Shown: in pieces, positions 18,046-50,200 of the stretch
How the letters are laid out: every line of letters starts with the position of its first letter
Numbering within the stretch: the first letter of the stretch is position 1
Assembly: GCA_036925085.1 (NCBI GenBank)
Contig: JAUPFP010000031.1
Span: 2,294,001-2,358,000, forward strand
DNA length: 64,000 bases
DNA from: Brachycybe producta
Taxonomy: Eukaryota > Arthropoda > Diplopoda > Playtdesmida > Andrognathidae
Direction: 5' to 3'
Translations under genes and position numbers: made by a program
Notes under the pieces: generated by a model
Databases searched by the model: none
Told to the model about the DNA's origin: nothing
What the model saw: only the letters and a program-made list of their open reading frames with translations

Positions 18046-18255
18046 ACAGGCAGTTAGAAATCGGGGAGAACTTCAGTTGGCTTCGCCCTTGTTATGACGA
18101 CTGGCAACTTCTAATTGGTTGGTTATTGTAGTCTGACGTCACATGCTCTCCGCCCTTTTTCAACGTTGAACCACACAACAAACCAATTAGAAGTTGCCAG
18201 TCGTCATAAAAAGGGCGGAGCCAACTTCTGTTTGTCCCTATTTCTAATTGCCTGT
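18046..18255. mobile_element. C-family palindromic element (C1)
   Basis: ACAGGCAGTTAGAAATCGG ... CTAATTGCCTGT; inner arms GCAACTTCTAATTGGTTGG and its complement; CTGACGTCACATGC off-centre. Short ORFs inside are artefacts of the palindrome. Confidence 0.85.
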
Positions 18256-18273
18256 GGAGAATGGTCCTTTTTT

Positions 18274-18484
18274 CCAGGCAATTAGAAATCGGGACGAACA
18301 GAATTTGGCTCCGCCCTTTTTATGACGACTGGCAACTTCTAATTGGTTAGTTATGTAGTTTGACGTCACATGCTCTCCGCCCTTTTTCAACGTTGAACCA
18401 CACAACAAACCAATTAGAAGTTGCCGGGTCGTCATAAAAAAAGGCGGAGCCAACTGAAGTTCTCTCCGATTTTTAACTGCCTAT
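18274..18484. mobile_element. C-family palindromic element (C2)
   Basis: Second copy, separated from C1 by the spacer GGAGAATGGTCCTTTTTT, which resembles the spacer in the 47.7-kb cluster. Confidence 0.85.
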
Positions 18485-22200: not shown

Positions 22201-25200
22201 GAAACTAGAATAGTTGGTGATAATGTTAAGTTTTTTTTTAAATGATGATATCTTTCAAAATAAACTTTTTATGACAGTTTTGAAAAATGGCCGAAAATAG
22301 TTTTTTTCATGAAATCTCAATGGAAAAACCTAAAAACTAGTCATTTTTCAAACTGAACTATAAAATTGTTTATCTTTTAAGATATTTCGATGAAACAACT
22401 TTTAGCATAATTTTTTACCATTCTAGTTTTGAAAACAATTTGAAATTCTTTCATAATGTTGTTTTTATAAAATGTTCAAATTGATATTTTTGCGTTCAAA
22501 TTTTACAAAAAAAAAGGTCTATGAAGTCTATTAGCCACTACAGTGGCGCCATCTGGAGGGCCAAAAACTAAATATCTATACAGTATTCAGCCACTTTAAG
22601 TGACCTTTGTTATATTATATACAAAGGGAGGGAAGGAATGGGGGGGGGGGGGGGTATTATGAAGCTCCACCCCTTCGTGCATAATTAATGAGATATCAAC
22701 CAATGGCGTCATTGCAATGTATGAATTTACGTCTCTGAAGGTTATATAGAGATAATATATTTAATATATACGGCGAGAGAGAGAGAGAAGATCTAGATGG
22801 GCGATTTCGAAATATTTTTTGTGTTTTGAGCTAATCAGTCTGCGTTTTTTTTTTTTGAAGAGAATAAAAAAAAATGGAAGGTCATTTTTATCAAATGCAA
22901 AACACAAAAAAAACATGTTGCAATTGATATTATAACCTCCCTCGCTTCTTTTTTTTTTTACTATTTGCATTTATCGCGCAATAAATAAAAAGTCCTCCGA
23001 AAAATCGAGCCATTCTCAACGAGTCGCTCTTGAAATTAAAATATAGAGGTAACTCAACTTAACGTTTTTAGAGACAAAAACGTCGTTTAGTGAGTGAGCA
23101 TATTAAGAAAGGTTACAGAAGTTGGCTCCGTCCTTTTTTATGACGACCGGCAACTTCTAATTGGTTGGTTATGTAGTTTGACGTCATTTTCCAACCATGG
23201 TTGGTTATGTAGTCTGACGTCACATGTTCCGCCATTTTCAACGTCGAACCTACACAACAAACCAATTAGAAGTTGCCGGTCGTCATAAAAAGGGCGGAGC
23301 CAACGTCTGTATGTCCCGATTTTTTAATTGCCTGTTTAAGAAGGGGTTCCGTAGAAAAGAAACTTATAAATGCAAGGTAGATGGCGCTTGTAACCTCCAT
23401 ATAGGTGGCAAATTACACACGTGCCAATTAGTTGAAATCGAATGCACCTTTTTATCCTCTAAAAGCGTCCAAAACAACCTTAATTATGAGCACGTGACAC
23501 ACTTAACCCAGAACATAATATAAGTGAGGAGACAGAGCACGTGTAGAAATAGCGACGACGCAAATTAAAAGTTTGCCACGTGCAGAATAAAAAGGAAGAA
23601 AGGTGAGTCAAGAGTTAAAGTGTCTGCAGTACATTTCTATGGGAGGAGGGCTAGTGGCGCCATCTAACGCTACACGCACAAAATAAATGATCTACTTGCA
23701 TTCTTAATTGTGTAGCCTCTTCCAGGGAGTTTCTCTTTTATTTCCTTCAAGCCACTGTTTTTTTTTGTATGTTCACGGAATTGTGGTAGGCTTGGTTATA
23801 TGCTCTTAAGAAATTCAGCTTTAAGTAGAGGTGGCACCATCTATCGGTGATACTCAGTCCTGCGTGTTTCTATATTTATTTTATTGTCTACAAGAATAGA
23901 ATTTTTTTATTTGAGAGGTATTATTTTTTATAGTGACTATAAAAATACTATAGCCTCTAACCAGTGTTCTAAATTGAAAATTATGTAATATTGACTCCCC
24001 GCTATTCATTGGTCAATTACGCCTAACCAACAATGACGTCACACATCAGTTGAGATATTTTTATTCAGCGATTGAATTTATTTAAATGAGTTTAAAAATA
24101 TACTGAAAAGTTTCAGTTCCTATTGGCACTCAAATCACTCATTGTGTGACGTCATGAAATTAGAAGAAAAAAAAGTGGGCATGACTATGTAATGACGTCA
24201 CTGTTGCTATTGGTTACATTGCAGCTGCGTCAATGCTTTACCTCGTGTTCCGCAGCCACTATGTTCTTTTCAAGTGTTCTTTTTAGTTTTAAGAACGGAA
24301 ATGACGTCAATTTTGCATGAATCGCTGAAATTCATGCATAGTGTTTCTTGGTATTCTTACAAGAAAACCAGCAGCATTAATCAGTCTCTTTTGGTTGCAA
24401 AATCAAATAACACTGGTTTGAGGCTAAAATTCTGTAGTGACAAAAGAAGTCTAGCCTCTAACCAGCAACTTCTCAACTGAAAAAAACGTGGTGGTTGTTC
24501 TTAAAATCACTCAAAAGTCGCTCTGATTGCGAAATAATACTGGCTTGAGGCTAGAATTATATGGTTCACAGTTGCAAGTGACCAGATAAGTCTTCTAGCC
24601 TCTAACCAGTCCCCTTTTTCGACTGGAATAAAACAATGTGGTTCTTAAAATGACTTAAAAGTTTAACAGAATCTAACCAGTCCCTTTAATAAAAAAAAAC
24701 ACTGGTTTGAGGCTAAAATTCTGTGGTTAAAATGCAAGTGACTAGAGAAGTCTAGCCTCTAACCAGCTACTTCAAAACGTGGTGGTTCTTAAAATCACTC
24801 AAAAGTCGCTCTGATTGCGAAATAATATTGGCTTGAGGCTAGAATTATATGGTTCACAGTTGCAAGTGACCAGATAAGTCTTCTAGCCTCTAACCAGTCC
24901 CCTTTTCACCTGAAAAAAAAACCAATGTGGTTCTTAAAATGACTCTAAAGTTAACCAGAACCAGTGTTTTTGATTAAAAGAAATCAAAAACACTGGTTTG
25001 AAGCCAAAGTTCTATGGTTGACAGTTACATTTGCAAGTGACTAGATAAGTCTAGCCTCTAACAAGCAACTTCTCAACTGAAAAAAACAAACAATGTTTAT
25101 GATTGCCTCCTAAAAATGAGTTATTAAAATATTTAGCTATAAAAAAGACAGCTGATGTCCTACAAATAAATAAGGGGTGGTGAAAAGACCCTAAATATAT

Positions 25201-31457: not shown

Positions 31458-31538
31458 ATTTCACTTGTATTACAAGTAGACTTGCCACCTTGTGGAGGAC
31501 AGTCCTCTCCATTCGGAAAAACTGTTCTCCGGCCAGGG

Positions 31539-31744
31539 ACAGGCAATTAGAAATCGGGACAAACAGAAGTTGGTTCCGCCCTTTTTATGACGACCGGCAA
31601 CTTCTAATTGGTTTGTTGTGTGGTTTGACGTTGAAAAGGGCGGAGAATGTGACGTCAAACTACATAACCAACCAATTAGAAGTTGCCGGTCGTCATAAAA
31701 AGGGCGGAGCCAACTTCTGTTCGTCCCGATTTCTAATTGCCTGT
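31539..31744. mobile_element. C-family palindromic element (C4)
   Basis: ACAGGCAATTAGAAATCGG ... CTAATTGCCTGT, central CAACGT and TGACGTCA. Short ORFs on both strands are palindrome artefacts. Confidence 0.85.
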
Positions 31745-31789
31745 CTTAATGTTTGGTATGGAGAATAAATTTTAAGGTCTCTATAGCCA

Positions 31790-31995
31790 ACAGGCAGTTA
31801 GAAATCGGTCAAAACTTCAGTTGGCTCCGCCCTTGTTATTATGACCAGCAACTTCTAATTGGTTTGTTGTGTTGTTCGACGTTGAAAAGGGCGGAGAATG
31901 TGACGTCAGACTACATAACCAACCAATTAGAAGTTGCCGGTCGTCATAAGAAGGGCGGAGCCAACTTCTGTTCGTCCCGATTTCTAATTGCCTGT
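31790..31995. mobile_element. C-family palindromic element (C5)
   Basis: ACAGGCAGTTAGAAATCGG ... CTAATTGCCTGT, 45 bp from C4. Confidence 0.85.
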
Positions 31996-32105
31996 AGACC
32001 AGGACCATCCTCCACGAACGTATTTACACAATTTATTGTGTGGAAGACATGTTTGCCTTCGTGGAGGAAACGGTCCTGGTTCGGAGGACTGTCCTCCACA
32101 AAGGA

Positions 32106-39442: not shown

Positions 39443-40135
39443 TTGCACTCGAAAGATATGTTGCAACTGTGGCATGAAACCAAAGTGTTGTTCACAAAAG
39501 ACAAAAGTGATTCTTTCCAAAACGATTTCCTAATCCGCAAACCGAAAGCCAAAAAAAAAAAGTTGATTTTGAAATCGTCTTCTCTTGAAATTGAAACGAT
39601 GTCCAAAATAAATGTTTGCTTATTTAGAAACAGGTAAAGAGGGGGGCTTAAAATTAAACCCCCTCTCTTCTCGAAGAAGAAGACCGAGAGACGTTTCCAA
39701 AAAAGGGAAGTTGGAATCTTCACCCAGACATTTTTTTTCGAAAAAGAACATTTCAGGAATGTCAATCCAAGATGGAGAAGAAAACAACTCAAAATTGTTA
39801 CTCAATGAGTCATATTTTTTTTAGGAACGAGACAGGCAGTTAGAAATAGGTGAAAACTTCAGTTGGCTCCGCCCTTTTTATGACGACCACCAACTTCTAA
39901 TTGGGTGGTTATGAAGTCTGACGTCACATGCTCTCTGCCCTTTTTAACGTCAGACTACATAACCAGCCAATTAGAAGTTGGTGGTCGTCATAACAAGGGC
40001 GGAGCCAACTGAAGTTTTCACCTATTTCTAACTGCCTGTAGGAACGAGTCAAAAAATCTAAGAAATCAAGATGGAAACTTGGCACATTTTTATAACTTGA
40101 AATCACCCCTTGTAGAAAGAGAGAGTTCAAGTTAA
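39443..40135 (+). other. Coding-like island of unknown identity, interrupted by a C element
   Basis: Between A repeats and a palindromic array is a non-repeat stretch whose frame at 39443-39633 is open, Lys/Ser-rich (SDSFQNDFLIRKPKAKKKK) and ends in CAG with GTAAAG, a good donor. A TTTTTTTTAG acceptor-like site at 39815-39824 leads into GAACGAG, where a C element (39832-40039) has inserted. Joining 39633 to 40042 keeps a frame open to TAA 40133-40135. No family is recognised. It may be a partial gene, a pseudogene fragment or chance. Confidence 0.2.
39832..40039. mobile_element. C-family palindromic element (C6) with exact 9-bp duplication
   Basis: 208 bp, ACAGGCAGTTAG ... CTAACTGCCTGT, flanked by AGGAACGAG at 39823-39831 and 40040-40048. 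This gives the element ends and its duplication length directly. Confidence 0.9.
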
Positions 40136-44200: not shown

Positions 44201-47200
44201 ACTAAAAGGGTAGCTGAATGACTTAATAAGATTTTCATGTTGAAATCTTACAAAATTAACTTTTTATAGAAGTTTTTTTCATGAAAATATCTTTTTAAGT
44301 GATTGAACTACCCTTCTAGTCTCTAAAACACTAGATCAATGTCTTCCTGAAATACAGAATAAATGTATTCAAAATTCCAGTCTATTCGTGAATTTTCATA
44401 ATTTTCATATTTCATAATGGCTAATTCACAAGTAAATTTATTAATATTTATATTTTTTTGATAATAATTTGCATAATGAACGTTTTTTTTTTTAATTAAA
44501 AAATATTAGAAATTTGAATAAAAATAAATTTAGAGAAAAACATCGCCCATAATCTTTTTTTGGCAGAATTAATGATATTTTCTAATTAAAAACATCCGGT
44601 TAACATTAAGTTCCACTTCCGGTTTAGTTAACTTACATGTTTATCTTTGCGAACATACATTGTTGGCACGATTTTTACGTAATACTGGAACATCATACCA
44701 CCTTTAATAGAAAATACAAAGAAGAAAAATTTATATAAATTGTGACATTTTCTAATGGGTGCAATCGGAAACATCAAAGACTTAAGCCGCGCTATCACAC
44801 TAGCAACTTTTAATGCAATAAAATGTGCAATGTGACATTGCAACTTCAATGTTTATAGTGTGATATGACGTCATGTAACTTGGATAAAACTTTCCTTTTA
44901 ACTAGTTTGAGAGGTGTGTTCCCTTTCCGTCGACAACCCTCAGGGATTGGATTGGAGGCTAAACAGTGACGTCAATAAAAAATATATAGACCTTTTTTTC
45001 ATCACTACAGATACCGGGAGGTAGCTGCATCGATTAGGTTTAGGTTAGGATCGTTAAGGTTCGGTTACGTTAGGGAGAAAGGGTTCTTTTTTTAGGTGTA
45101 GTGACGAGAAAGTGATAAAAAAGGTCTATATTTTGTCCCCCTATGACGTCACTGTTAGCCTTCAATCCAATCCCTGCGGCTTGTCGACGGAAAAATACTC
45201 AGTCTCACCGAGTTGAACAGGTTCAACTTCTGACAGACTTTTCATGTAACTTTTCTGACAAACAACCAATCAGGCCGTTTGCCAGAAATGATATATGTAA
45301 CGTTGAACGAATTCCCCGGTTTCATGACTTCCGGTTTATGAACTTCCTATTAGTTGATCACAATATGGACACACAAACCAAGGGGGCAGACATTGAACAG
45401 AAAATCATGTACGATTTTCCCTAAGATTCACAGCATATCTTCGTGTCGATGGAAAGTCATTTTACTTTTTAGCCGCAATTTTACTGGATATTCAGAATAT
45501 AAATTGAAATTTTAAAATTCAGTAAAAACGCGGATTAAAAGTAAAATGGCTTCCGATATACCGTAAGAGATTCATCCGAATGTGTCGGCCCCTTTGACAT
45601 AAACGAAGTTTTGAAAACTTGATTGGGGACTTAGGTTGCATAATGTGATATAGAACTTTATTACAAAGTTCTAGTTGCAAGTCACATCACAAGTTGCTTG
45701 GCATTAAAAGTTGCTAGTGTGATAGGGGCTTAAGGGTAAAAACATAGTGGAGAGGCAAAGTCACGAGCCAAGCTGTGATGGTAGCTGCGAGCTAATATTT
45801 CACACAGGCAATTAGAAATCGGTACAAACAGAAGTTGACTCCGCCCTTTTTGATGATGACCGGCAACTTCTAATTGTTGGTTATGTAGTCTGACGTCACA
45901 TGCTCTCCACCCTTTTCAACGTCGAACCACACAACAAACCAATTAGAAGTTGCTGTTCGTGATAAAAAGGGCGGAGCCAACTTCTGTTTGTCCCGATTTC
46001 TAATTGCCTGTATATTACACCTCCTCACTAAGTACAAAAATTGTAAATCTGCAGCACTGCTAGCATCTAGCATCGTGAAACTCGCAGCTTGCGTCCCAGT
46101 TTGGCTCTTGACTCATCGTTCCACTATGTTTTTACCCCTAAGATTCACCAAGATTCACCATTTTCTAAATTTGTTTAAGAAGTTGATTGACATTTATTAA
46201 TAATTAAAACTCGAATCGATCTCTGCGTTTCGCATTGAAGGCAAATAAATATTTTAGAAAAATCAAAATCGGTCGGATATTTTTTTTTTAAAAAAAATAC
46301 TTCAAAAGACCTCAATGCAAAGGTGGCGCCACCTTCATGTGCTTCATTGTTACGCAAGAGAAATGTCCGTAAACACTCATAATAATAAAGCAATTGTTTA
46401 AATATTCTATTTCCGAGTTTATTGCTAAACACGCATTCCAAATTTATAATTAGTTTCGTGTAATACCTAGTACACACCCGATAATTTAAATGCATTTAAA
46501 TAATAAATGTGTTCTACGGAGCCCCGTGAAGGATAAACAAACAATATGTCGAATTCAATTTATTCAGTTAATTAATCTGAAAATAATTGAATTAATACTT
46601 ATATATAATTTATAGAAACTATTGATATAGTATTCCATTTTTAAAATATTAATAATAAAAGTGAATTTTTATTTGGTGTTCATGTCCTTAACTGGATTCC
46701 GTATAATTCACCTAAACACATTTAATTTGAATTCATTTAACTCATGTGCTGTGTACAAGGTATAAAGGAGGAGCTTCATGTTAAAGGTGCTTAAGATGAG
46801 GCCAAAATTCAAGAAGAAAACTTGACACTTGAACCCTCAAAACAGGGTTCCAACACAACAAAACGCTCTTTTTATTAAAATGTATCCTTGAACAACGTTT
46901 TTCCATGTGGAAACCCTGTGCTGAGAGTTCAAATCGAAGTTTAAGGTGGTTTAAACGTGTAAATTCCTTTCGAACTATGATTATTCTGTCATTCAAGTGT
47001 AACAAAAGAGAACTTGAATGTGTTTTAGAAACTAGAAGGGTAGCTCAATAACTTACTTGTATTTTTCAATATCTTTCAAAATAAACTATTCATGTGAAGT
47101 TCAAAATGACCCAAACTTTAAGCAGACCATATTTCTTTTTGAAATTTTTGTCTAGAAAAAGTTTATTTTGAAAAAAATATCAGTTGACGTAAAAAATACA

Positions 47201-50200
47201 CTTAAGTGATTGAGTTACCCTTCTAGTTTCTAAAGAAACACATTCAATTCTCTCTTTAATTTGCACCTGAAAGACAATAATCAAAGAGTTAGAAAATCAA
47301 CTGTTCATTAAACAACCATCTGATAAATTTACAGGAAATTAGAAATCGGGACAAACAGAAGTTGGCTCCGCCCTTTTTATGACGACCAGCAACTTCTAAT
47401 TGGTTGGTTATGTAGTCTGACGTCACATGCTCTCCGCCCTTTTCAACGTCGAACCACACAACAAACCAATTAGAAGTTGCCGGTCGTCATAAAAAGGGCG
47501 GAGCCAACTTCTGTTCATCCCGTTTTATAATTGCCTGTAAAAAAAAGAACCGTACTTCACAGGCAATTAGAAATCGGGACAAACAGAAGTGTGCTCCGCC
47601 CTTTTTATGACGACCAGCAACTTCTAATTGGTTGGTTATGTAGTCTGACGTCACATGCTCCGTCCTTTTCAACGTCGAACCACACAACAAACCAATTAGA
47701 AGTTGCCGGTCGTCATAAAAAGGGCGGAGCTAACTTCTGTTCATCCCATTTTCTAAATGCCTGTGGAGTACGGTCCTTTTTTTTTACAGGCAATTATAAA
47801 ACGGGATGAACAGAAGTTGGCTCCGCCCTTTTTATGACGACCGGCAACTTCTAATTGGTTGGTTATGTAATCTGACGTCACATGCTCCGCCCTTTTTAAC
47901 GTCGAACCACACAAGAAACCAATTAGAAGTTGCCGTTCGTCATATAAAGGGCGGAGTAAACGTCTGTTTATCCCGATTTCTAATTGCCTGTGATAAATTT
48001 CTCTTCTTGAACTTGAACCCTTATAAATCGAAAGCTAGAATGACGTCATAAGAGAAGACGCGTTGCCATGACAACTCGTTATAGAAATGTACAAATTGCG
48101 TCAACACAAGAAGACACATTACAACATTTTAAACGCGATTTTCTCATCATATAACCACGTAATAATTACCAATAAAAAAAAAACAAGTTGCAATCAAAAA
48201 AAATAGTTGAAACAAAAAAAAAATTGTAAAGTTTAAAATGTTCTACGCAATCTCCGGTTTTCCAAGAAAATTTCATTGATCATTCACGTTGTTTACATTT
48301 TAATATATTATAAAAAAAAAAGACCCTGAAGCCACCCCCTCTAACGATGAGCAATGCAATCAATTGATCAACATCCGGGATCTTAGAGAGACATATATAA
48401 AGCAAACAATCCTTCCTCCCTCCCCCACACTCCTCCTAACAGCAAAATGTTCAATGTCAAAATTAAATTGCTAAATATTACATAGACAATATCTTACAAC
48501 ACAATCCAATTTCGTTATATTACAAATCGAAATGTAAATAAATTACCTAACTTTCAATTATTATCTCTTTCAACAACTAGCGTTAGCCCATTAGAATTTG
48601 CAGAGCGCATGCGCATTACCATCTTATCGTTTTATATAGGAAAACGATCGAAAATGCACGCTAGCAGTAACATATATTGTTTCCATTGGTGATCAATAGA
48701 TGGCGCTGCTAACGCAAATCTGCAATAACTTTCCTATATAAAACGATAAGATGGCAATACGCATGCGCTCTGCTAATACTAATGGGCTAACGCTAGTAAT
48801 CATCACTTACAATATAACTTGTAAGTAATCCAGCAATGTGTTGCCGTTGCCAGTGCCACCTATCAACCAATAAATAATTAATCCCTTTTTATCAACAGTG
48901 CAGCAACCTTATCCAATAGAAAAACAATAAAAAAATACAGTGTTGCCAGATCCTTTTCCAATAACATCGCCCCGTACAAAGCCTGCCTCATCCGGGTCAT
49001 CCCTCATGCTCAGTCAGCATAAGAAACAGACGACGTCGCAGGAGTCGACGTAAAATTTAAGTGTGTCATTTAGCCTGTCAGAAAAAGGACGATAGAACGT
49101 TCTCAACAGTTTTAACAAAAGAATTATTGCTTTCTTTTGTTATTACATTCTTTTTAATCAAGTTAAAAACTCACAATCCTAAATTTTTTATCAACCCCTT
49201 TGACGTCACAACCTTACTTTTACGACGAGGCAGAAATACTTCAGTATTATTAATCCTGATTGCCCCTAATATTGTTTTGAGTTGAAACTTGAAAATTCGT
49301 CGGCGCCTAATCGACCACTCGTAGCCTAGCATGTGTGTTTTCCCATTAACTTATCAATACTTCAACCAAGGATACTTAAACTCGTCCCCATTGATTGACT
49401 TTTGGCATGCAAGGCTACATGCGATCATCAAGGCTTTTGACCCAACTGAGGACTCCCACACAGTAAAATTGAAGCATATATTAACTAAATAAAAAATGAC
49501 CTACTATGGCGACTTTGCATTGTTTGCGACATAGAGGACAATATATAAACACGCCATTTTGGTGCACACTTTCAAATCTACGCCTGACTTCAGTAATTGA
49601 CGTCATCTAACGGGTGTCCGAAGATGGCGCAATTTCAAGTCGAAATGCATAGACAAGACGCCATATTGCGTCACTCATCAAAATCAAATATATAACCACA
49701 GAATAAGGATATAAATATAATATATATCCTTATTCTGTGATATAACTATAAAGAGCATCCCATTCAACCCCATGTTATTTTGCTTGTTTTCACTTTTATA
49801 AATATTTGTTTTCACTGTATGTACATTATTGTATTTATCTGTATTCTGAGTTTTCTGTCGTTTAGTCACGTTGATGACCAGGGAGCAAAAACAGTTGTAA
49901 AAACAGCTGTGAGAATGCATTAACAAGAACCAATGACGTAACATCCGCTAAAGATGTCGACCTCTACCTAATAACCTTATCATAACCATACCATTGTTGT
50001 TGTTTCCATTAAAAGGTATACTTTAAACGCAATTGTTTTTTTTTCTATTGTTTATTTTTGCTGTTGTATTTAATCATTTTTCGATCCTCTTAATTAAAGA
50101 AGTAATAATGCCAGTTCCTGTACCAGGAGGCTCTTATCAGTCCGGACCCAGCTGTTGGGATCGAGTTAAAGTGGGATTTACAATTGGATTTTGTGTTGGT

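Follow-up and report, generated by a model that had tools for sequence, protein, structure and literature searches.

Tandem multimers of a palindromic MITE in Brachycybe producta share spacers between loci and carry matched outer ends

Introduction

Tandem transposon dimers are thought to seed satellite DNA, and both their origin and their continued mobility are hard to see. McGurk and Barbash 2018 are said to have put forward the double transposon insertion as the seed of such dimers. In bacteria, IS911 and IS30 give rise to tandem dimers and to junction circles, in which the ends abut with a short scrap of flanking sequence.

Tandem arrangements have also been described for MITEs. The portions of the Acropora coral account considered here describe CMITEs as full-length MITEs in tandem with near-identical inter-repeat sequence, ascribed to replication slippage (PMC2872659). 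At Atlantic cod inversion breakpoints, the corresponding portions report tandem hAT-derived MITEs with units of 167-169 bp, whose inverted repeats were proposed to promote inversions (PMC12368964). Double transposon insertions are cited in passages of the same study and of a review (PMC12368964, PMC9659126), and the latter passages also cover foldback elements such as Tetris, with satellite-forming arms (PMC9659126).

Here we analyse tandem multimers of a palindromic element, C, starting from a triple array. The window, i.e. the whole 64,000-nucleotide stretch under study, corresponds to positions 2294001-2358000 of contig C31 in the 295.3-Mb, 442-contig genome of Brachycybe producta, and its coding pieces match a complex I subunit and protein kinases. 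An original prediction, made from the letters of the window, had described three C palindromes in a row that were either mobilised together as one composite or produced by internal insertion into a symmetric site.

Results

The triple C locus

Three near-palindromic C units of 208, 206 and 206 bp, in the same orientation and head to tail on the plus strand, occupy 47331-47538, 47559-47764 and 47786-47991, in agreement with the predicted row of palindromes. Unit 1 is a palindromic MITE with arms of about 93-96 nt and a centre of about 20 nt. From the first ACAGG to the last CCTGT the composite spans exactly 661 bp (47331-47991), so that the predicted length of roughly 660 bp holds for the whole; the spacers, given there as 12 bp, include an A/T run and are therefore 20 and 21 bp long. 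Identities between whole units are 0.95, 0.91 and 0.90 in the same orientation and 0.81-0.83 when reversed, and the centres of all three units share one orientation. Units 1 and 2 are alike in each of their two arms (0.96, 0.95), and the left arm of unit 3 is an inverted match of the right arm of unit 1 (0.97 over 80 nt; 94% over 101 nt including the T/A runs).

The triple is enclosed by a 9-bp target-site duplication, recognised by flank match, with copies of GATAAATTT on the plus strand at 47322-47330 and 47992-48000 (9/9 match). The chance of a 9/9 match is 0.0001, as derived from mismatched flank pairs of 92 records with offsets allowed, and GATAAATTT has four further occurrences within the 64-kb window, both strands counted. 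Each unit's own two flanks agree at only 4/9 positions, and thus the triple has no inner duplications. A single outer duplication without inner ones is as expected for a jointly moving multimer, and a direct repeat outside units 1 and 3 only is what had been predicted. A corresponding empty site was not found among 40 scored of 419 candidates in this one genome; a query joining the two flanks returned only the triple locus with its right half, the left half being repetitive (39 other places). About 90 bp to the left of the triple lies another inverted-repeat element (47024-47234) with 43-nt arms that are 91% complementary, and the sequence between this element and the triple is the one that matches those 39 places.

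The two spacers were predicted to be inverted versions of each other, and this is correct: spacer 1, AAAAAAAAGAACCGTACTTC (47539-47558, minus strand), is identical at 18/20 positions to the reverse complement of spacer 2, GGAGTACGGTCCTTTTTTTTT (47765-47785, plus strand), a match that was reached or exceeded by 3 of 200,000 random 20-mer pairs from the window. Relative to the unit centres, spacer 2 has the orientation usual for its lineage (see below) and spacer 1 the opposite one. Two changes set spacer 1 apart from the lineage spacer, and they leave its ends complementary (GGA...TCC to GAA...TTC), which at two sites only may be due to chance.

The related sequences on either side of the middle unit might suggest that the array grew when a unit inserted into a dimer's spacer. 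One spacer would then be split, with a direct 9-bp repeat as the trace, whereas both spacers are complete and inverted, and two complete spacers of like orientation are found in the other trimers of the lineage. Internal insertion into a symmetric site, as originally considered, should likewise have produced a direct 9-bp repeat next to the middle unit, where the match is 4/9. Contradicted by the sequence, growth by insertion is rejected for the triple and must be regarded as highly improbable.

C is a palindromic MITE

The C unit is a near-palindrome of about 207 bp with ACAGG...CCTGT ends and the terminal sequence ACAGGCAATTAG. A 31-base arm-end pattern, allowing at most two mismatches, matches 8,441 places in the genome and gives no control match; if each unit yields at most two of these, there are at least about 4,200 C units. 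The flanks of solo copies agree at 7/9 positions or more in 33/47 cases, compared to 2.4% of mismatched pairs, and many of these duplications are perfect, e.g. TATTCGAAC, CGATTTGTG and TGTGTTTAT. Copy number and flank matches together identify C as a palindromic MITE with 9-bp target duplications: it is short, has inverted repeats, is present in high copy number and makes duplications of constant length. Solo C units are thus independent transposons, and C is a non-autonomous palindromic DNA transposon. Its ends fall into the types CAATT..., CAGTT...GAGAACTTCAG and CATTT.... Two solo copies that lie 12 kb apart (L013, C67:827704; L014, C67:815550) agree in the 15 nt compared on each side, which suggests a segmental duplication.

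Mutator-like elements (MULEs) make target duplications of about 9 bp, as does C. Merlin elements likewise give 8-9 bp, so this length does not decide whether C is a MULE. A MULE transposase domain is present at 21 places in the genome; a C-like end is absent from three pieces flanking such domains (L109 beside a C5 pair, L110 and L111 around a C13 place). Some MULE domains form inverted pairs (C2:4233697-4236531, C5:5402932-5405766 and C38:896639-898720) that measure 1.8-2.6 kb start to start and have long open frames of 844-1088 aa, resembling a head-to-head double transposon.

The window harbours further C copies. A solo at 45804-46011 (plus strand) is flanked by the duplication ATATTTCAC/ATATTACAC (8/9), and another at 39832-40039 (plus strand) has G-type ends (CAGTT...) on both sides and the duplication AGGAACGAG. 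A dimer at 18046-18484 (plus strand) belongs to the spacer lineage of the triple (GGAGAATGGTCC-T) and has G-type outer ends, its outer duplication being unclear (4/9). An incomplete copy is found at 23115-23335 (plus strand), and two head-to-tail units on the minus strand at 31539-31995 are separated by a different spacer of 45 bp. The latter pair is bracketed by an 18-nt perfect inverted pair of TTGTGGAGGACAGTCCTC (31490-31507 and 32084-32101). Related sequences of the form GTGGAGGAC(A/G)GTCC are widespread in the genome.

Tandem C arrays across the genome

We tabulated 45 array rows, one of which is a part of L086, and these together with 47 solos make up the 92 records. The 44 distinct arrays comprise 33 dimers, 10 trimers and one tetramer. 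Most were retrieved with the triple itself as query, so this sample leans towards its lineage, unlike the junction searches. The outer flanks match at 7/9 positions or more in 25/44 distinct arrays, whereas only 7/102 units of the 45 rows have a match between their own flanks, three of these in arrays seemingly born in place (L097 twice, L074). The 19/44 arrays with no such outer match thus include some that are old or truncated, chance neighbours or not the product of one insertion. One dimer (L085, 553-975) is enclosed by a 17-bp direct repeat (TGCATTGACACTCAATG) instead of the usual 9 bp.

Once units with a match of less than about 175 nt had been set aside, the 45 rows contained 57 junctions between full-length units, every one of them head to tail; some partial units (L020, L047, L070, L074, L094) were scored in the opposite orientation. 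Exact tail-to-head junctions, for which the control gave no match, number 77 genome-wide at spacings of 5-35 bp and 19 at 36-66 bp, i.e. a four-fold excess of short spacings; four of the 19 come from two tandem pairs on C3.

The abundance of C raises the question of whether the triple simply represents three independent neighbouring insertions of single units. L090 resembles such a case, as its second unit is flanked by a duplication of its own, ATTAATAGA. In the triple, by contrast, the units have no duplications of their own, and the uniform head-to-tail arrangement and the excess of short spacings are not expected from independent events. Most directly, its spacer is common to other loci; this contradicts independent insertion, which is rejected for the triple and retains a negligible probability.

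Spacer lineages

Spacers are near-identical within an array, and the same spacer recurs at other loci. The lineage spacer of the triple consists of GGAGTACGGTCC followed by six to nine T. It is found with at most two mismatches at 36 places in the genome, corresponding to 28 arrays, and the presence of the spacer in other clusters, on which the prediction hinged, is thereby borne out. Of the 28, C6:708341 and C20:1143402 may belong to another repeat, as do most of 30 further matches with three mismatches. Contig C31, which makes up 1% of the genome, carries 19 of the 28 arrays. The widespread GTGGAGGAC(A/G)GTCC repeat resembles GGAGTACGGTCC, and the birthplace of the lineage may therefore have been a copy of it.

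Spacer diversity was analysed among 50 listed junctions of the 77, taken in contig order up to C52. Of these, 37 have spacers of 18-32 bp, and they form 20 or 23 clusters at thresholds of 0.5 and 0.6, respectively, including one whose six junctions are all on C22. Junction pairs of the same lineage lie on one contig in 80/121 cases compared to 16 in shuffles (threshold 0.6; the same 50 junctions). Nearly all same-contig pairs come from the two largest lineages, indicating that these two spread mostly nearby. Together, the data suggest that spacers form lineages that tag multimers dispersed as units, be it by jumping or by recombination.

Outer ends are matched in pairs

Within the first 30 columns, the ends of a solo copy match each other (0.931, with 0/5000 shuffles as high), and columns 31-60 are without an end pairing signal (2895/5000 shuffles). 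Arrays behave in the same way with respect to their outermost ends, which match over the terminal 30 columns at 0.880 compared to 0.804 in shuffles (0/5000) and are without pairing in columns 31-60 (3058/5000). The outer arm matches the inner arm of its own end unit at only 0.838. As the outer ends of an array match each other better than the inner ends of their own units, the outer pair was mobilised together. This is further supported by the end types, scored by one base in the 44 arrays: G-type ends are present at both outer positions in nine and on one side in three (Fisher 7e-7). Inner arms of the nine G/G arrays are A-type in 23/28 cases, and since they thus differ in type from the matched outer ends, the inner junction has another history.

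Matched outer ends fit two readings. The multimer may jump whole, sometimes exchanging ends, or a solo may jump and then be filled in by recombination. In the second reading, a solo would insert with a 9-bp duplication and the broken palindromic centre would be repaired by copying a nearby multimer, placing spacer and inner arms between resident outer ends, so that the lineage would spread by recombination and not by jumping. This predicts matched outer ends that vary by locus around inner arms of one lineage. Indeed, outer-end types differ between loci although the inner junction is of one lineage, and four changes are needed on the inner-junction tree. With all 28 junctions, shuffles have a mean of 7.8 changes and only 1-3/500 are as low, a count in which junctions of the same array enter repeatedly. 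With one junction for each of 20 arrays, outer type shows no significant association with the inner tree (shuffle mean 5.3; 63-65/500), and shortened arms give the same picture (55-72/500 as low). The tree thus does not demonstrate that the ends are passed on with the multimer, and it does not distinguish between the two readings. Exchange of ends or in-place conversion is therefore needed for part of the data. On the basis of this test we lowered our estimate for whole-multimer transposition from fairly probable to evenly balanced, and raised that for conversion from unlikely to a tentative alternative.

Conversion also fits the local clustering of the spacer lineage and the variable orientation of spacers relative to the unit centres. 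It predicts solo and array at the same place, and no such pair was recognised among the listed flank comparisons of the 92 records, where two pairs agreed in both flanks, though with unequal distances or a different arrangement. Moreover, conversion alone leaves the missing pairing signal in columns 31-60 of solos and arrays unexplained.

Origin, growth and spacer reversal

A few loci have a spacer that is a copy of the flank next to it. In L075 a 30-bp spacer recurs without a change where the right flank starts; its first letters, AACTAAAC, are close to AACTAAAT, which stands at the left edge. L074 has a 25-bp spacer between its units, the last 21 bp of which recur after the truncated last unit, followed by flank. 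In L097 two units are bordered on both sides by CTGTGTCTC, with a damaged copy between them and a low-complexity flank. These three arrays suggest births in place. Several other spacers resemble a recurrent target, GTCTACAGA, inside another repeat, either left- or right-sided and in varying lengths. Targets of this kind are involved at L098, L099, L074 and L101 as well as at C3:4051817, C3:4553413, C14:3066528, C14:3452435 and C40:439078, so C insertion may prefer that site.

These spacers can be read as a target duplication plus a variable length of flank from one side, ending at the unit end, by a mechanism that we infer. Plain slippage need not respect the unit end. The exact boundary rather suggests that a cut end was joined to the flank, or that a second unit inserted with one cut at the edge of the first.

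Seven arrays have at least two junctions of the triple's lineage. In three of them (L002, L004, L008) the array's own junctions are nearest relatives on starred branches; the grouping is ambiguous in L005 and L040, and junctions of L003 and of the triple are not grouped on the tree. Units 1 and 2 of the triple plausibly look like a local duplication. Given the three self-grouping arrays and the similarity of these two units, a smaller form may have inserted and subsequently grown.

The grouping of junctions by locus in three arrays and the apparent in-place expansion of L074, L075 and L097 would also be compatible with a satellite-like expansion of one insertion by replication slippage, in which the array does not spread, as proposed for the coral CMITE arrays. 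Under this explanation, however, the same spacer should not turn up at numerous loci that differ in flanks and outer duplications, and only a few of the spacers analysed match their own flank. We therefore consider it improbable.

In 3/20 arrays of the lineage, spacers have the reverse orientation with respect to the unit centres: the triple (one of two spacers), L072, and L004 (3/3). The reversal of spacer 1 fits an exchange or template switching within the inverted palindromic arms. Grouping of the reversed spacers in a single clade was not clearly upheld. It received 99/99 with whole arms, partly an effect of the asymmetric centre; with the centre removed, the AU p values were 0.033 (60 nt a side) and 0.135 (50 nt) for a group named after the first tree. 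Without a clear single group, reversal is perhaps recurrent.

Discussion

Taken together, we favour a multimer of one spacer lineage that would have been born by tandem duplication, jumped whole, grown in place and undergone spacer reversal, a scenario to which we give about an even chance. Initially, a unit together with the target duplication and a further 0 to about 22 bp of flank would have been duplicated in tandem to give unit-spacer-unit, as is visible at a few other loci and presumed for the triple's lineage. The spacer, as tandem-duplicated flank, would then be a fossil of the birthplace. The transposase would subsequently take the outermost two ends, and the whole multimer would jump, mostly to sites on the same contig, making a fresh outer 9-bp duplication and carrying the old spacer along, a step that we favour. 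Dimers would become trimers and tetramers in place by unequal exchange, which is supported for three arrays and plausible for the triple. Finally, as every unit is a palindrome, the spacer could be reversed when the right arm of a unit and the left arm of the unit after it undergo exchange or strand switching, and this would apply to spacer 1 of the triple and to two other arrays. For the original prediction of a one-event composite, the single outer duplication, the matched outer ends and the recurrence of the spacer lineage at many loci, of which most have outer duplications of their own, speak in favour. The joint arrival of all 661 bp does not follow from them, since a smaller form that has grown would be compatible too, as would a resident solo completed by recombination.

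A more specific and rather unlikely version is that the element's own transposition chemistry makes multimers. An exact unit end would be joined to a point in the neighbouring flank, at a distance of 9 to about 31 bp, e.g. between sister chromatids. This would yield tandem repeats of unit, duplication and flank, and their outer ends would then act as one transposon with the spacers as heritable birth tags. If this were true, spacers would trace multimer lineages, their local spread and exchanges of ends. More generally, a spacer tag can show the birthplace of a dimer, the spread of its descendants (mostly on one contig, for the two largest lineages) and recombination between palindromic arms.

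In the literature searched, which covered few subscription journals, we found no account of MITE multimers that disperse with a fossil spacer and have matched outer ends. The head-to-tail C dimers resemble those that McGurk and Barbash 2018 are said to regard as a satellite substrate, and spacers of 9-10 bp, the length of the target duplication, would fit a double insertion; many C spacers are longer, however, and are found again at other loci. IS911 and IS30 share with C the abutted ends with a scrap of flank; they differ from C in enzymes and kingdom and in their circles, which are not in evidence for C.

As corals and cod also have tandem MITE arrays, the C multimers vary a known theme. In the portions of the coral account considered, CMITEs resemble C as tandem full-length MITEs with similar inter-unit sequence and differ in their length of about 100 bp, TTAA duplications and piggyBac-like ends; cross-locus spacer lineages, matched outer ends and inverted spacers are features of C not met in those portions (PMC2872659). 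As far as the cod account was covered, its elements are likewise inverted-repeat MITEs in tandem, but they are hAT-derived and form kilobase arrays, whereas C has two to four units, a 9-bp duplication and an inversion inside the array (PMC12368964). Tetris, as treated in the passages of the review, shares with C the long inverted arms and the tandem repetition; in C, the repeated module is a complete transposon that is also abundant alone (PMC9659126).
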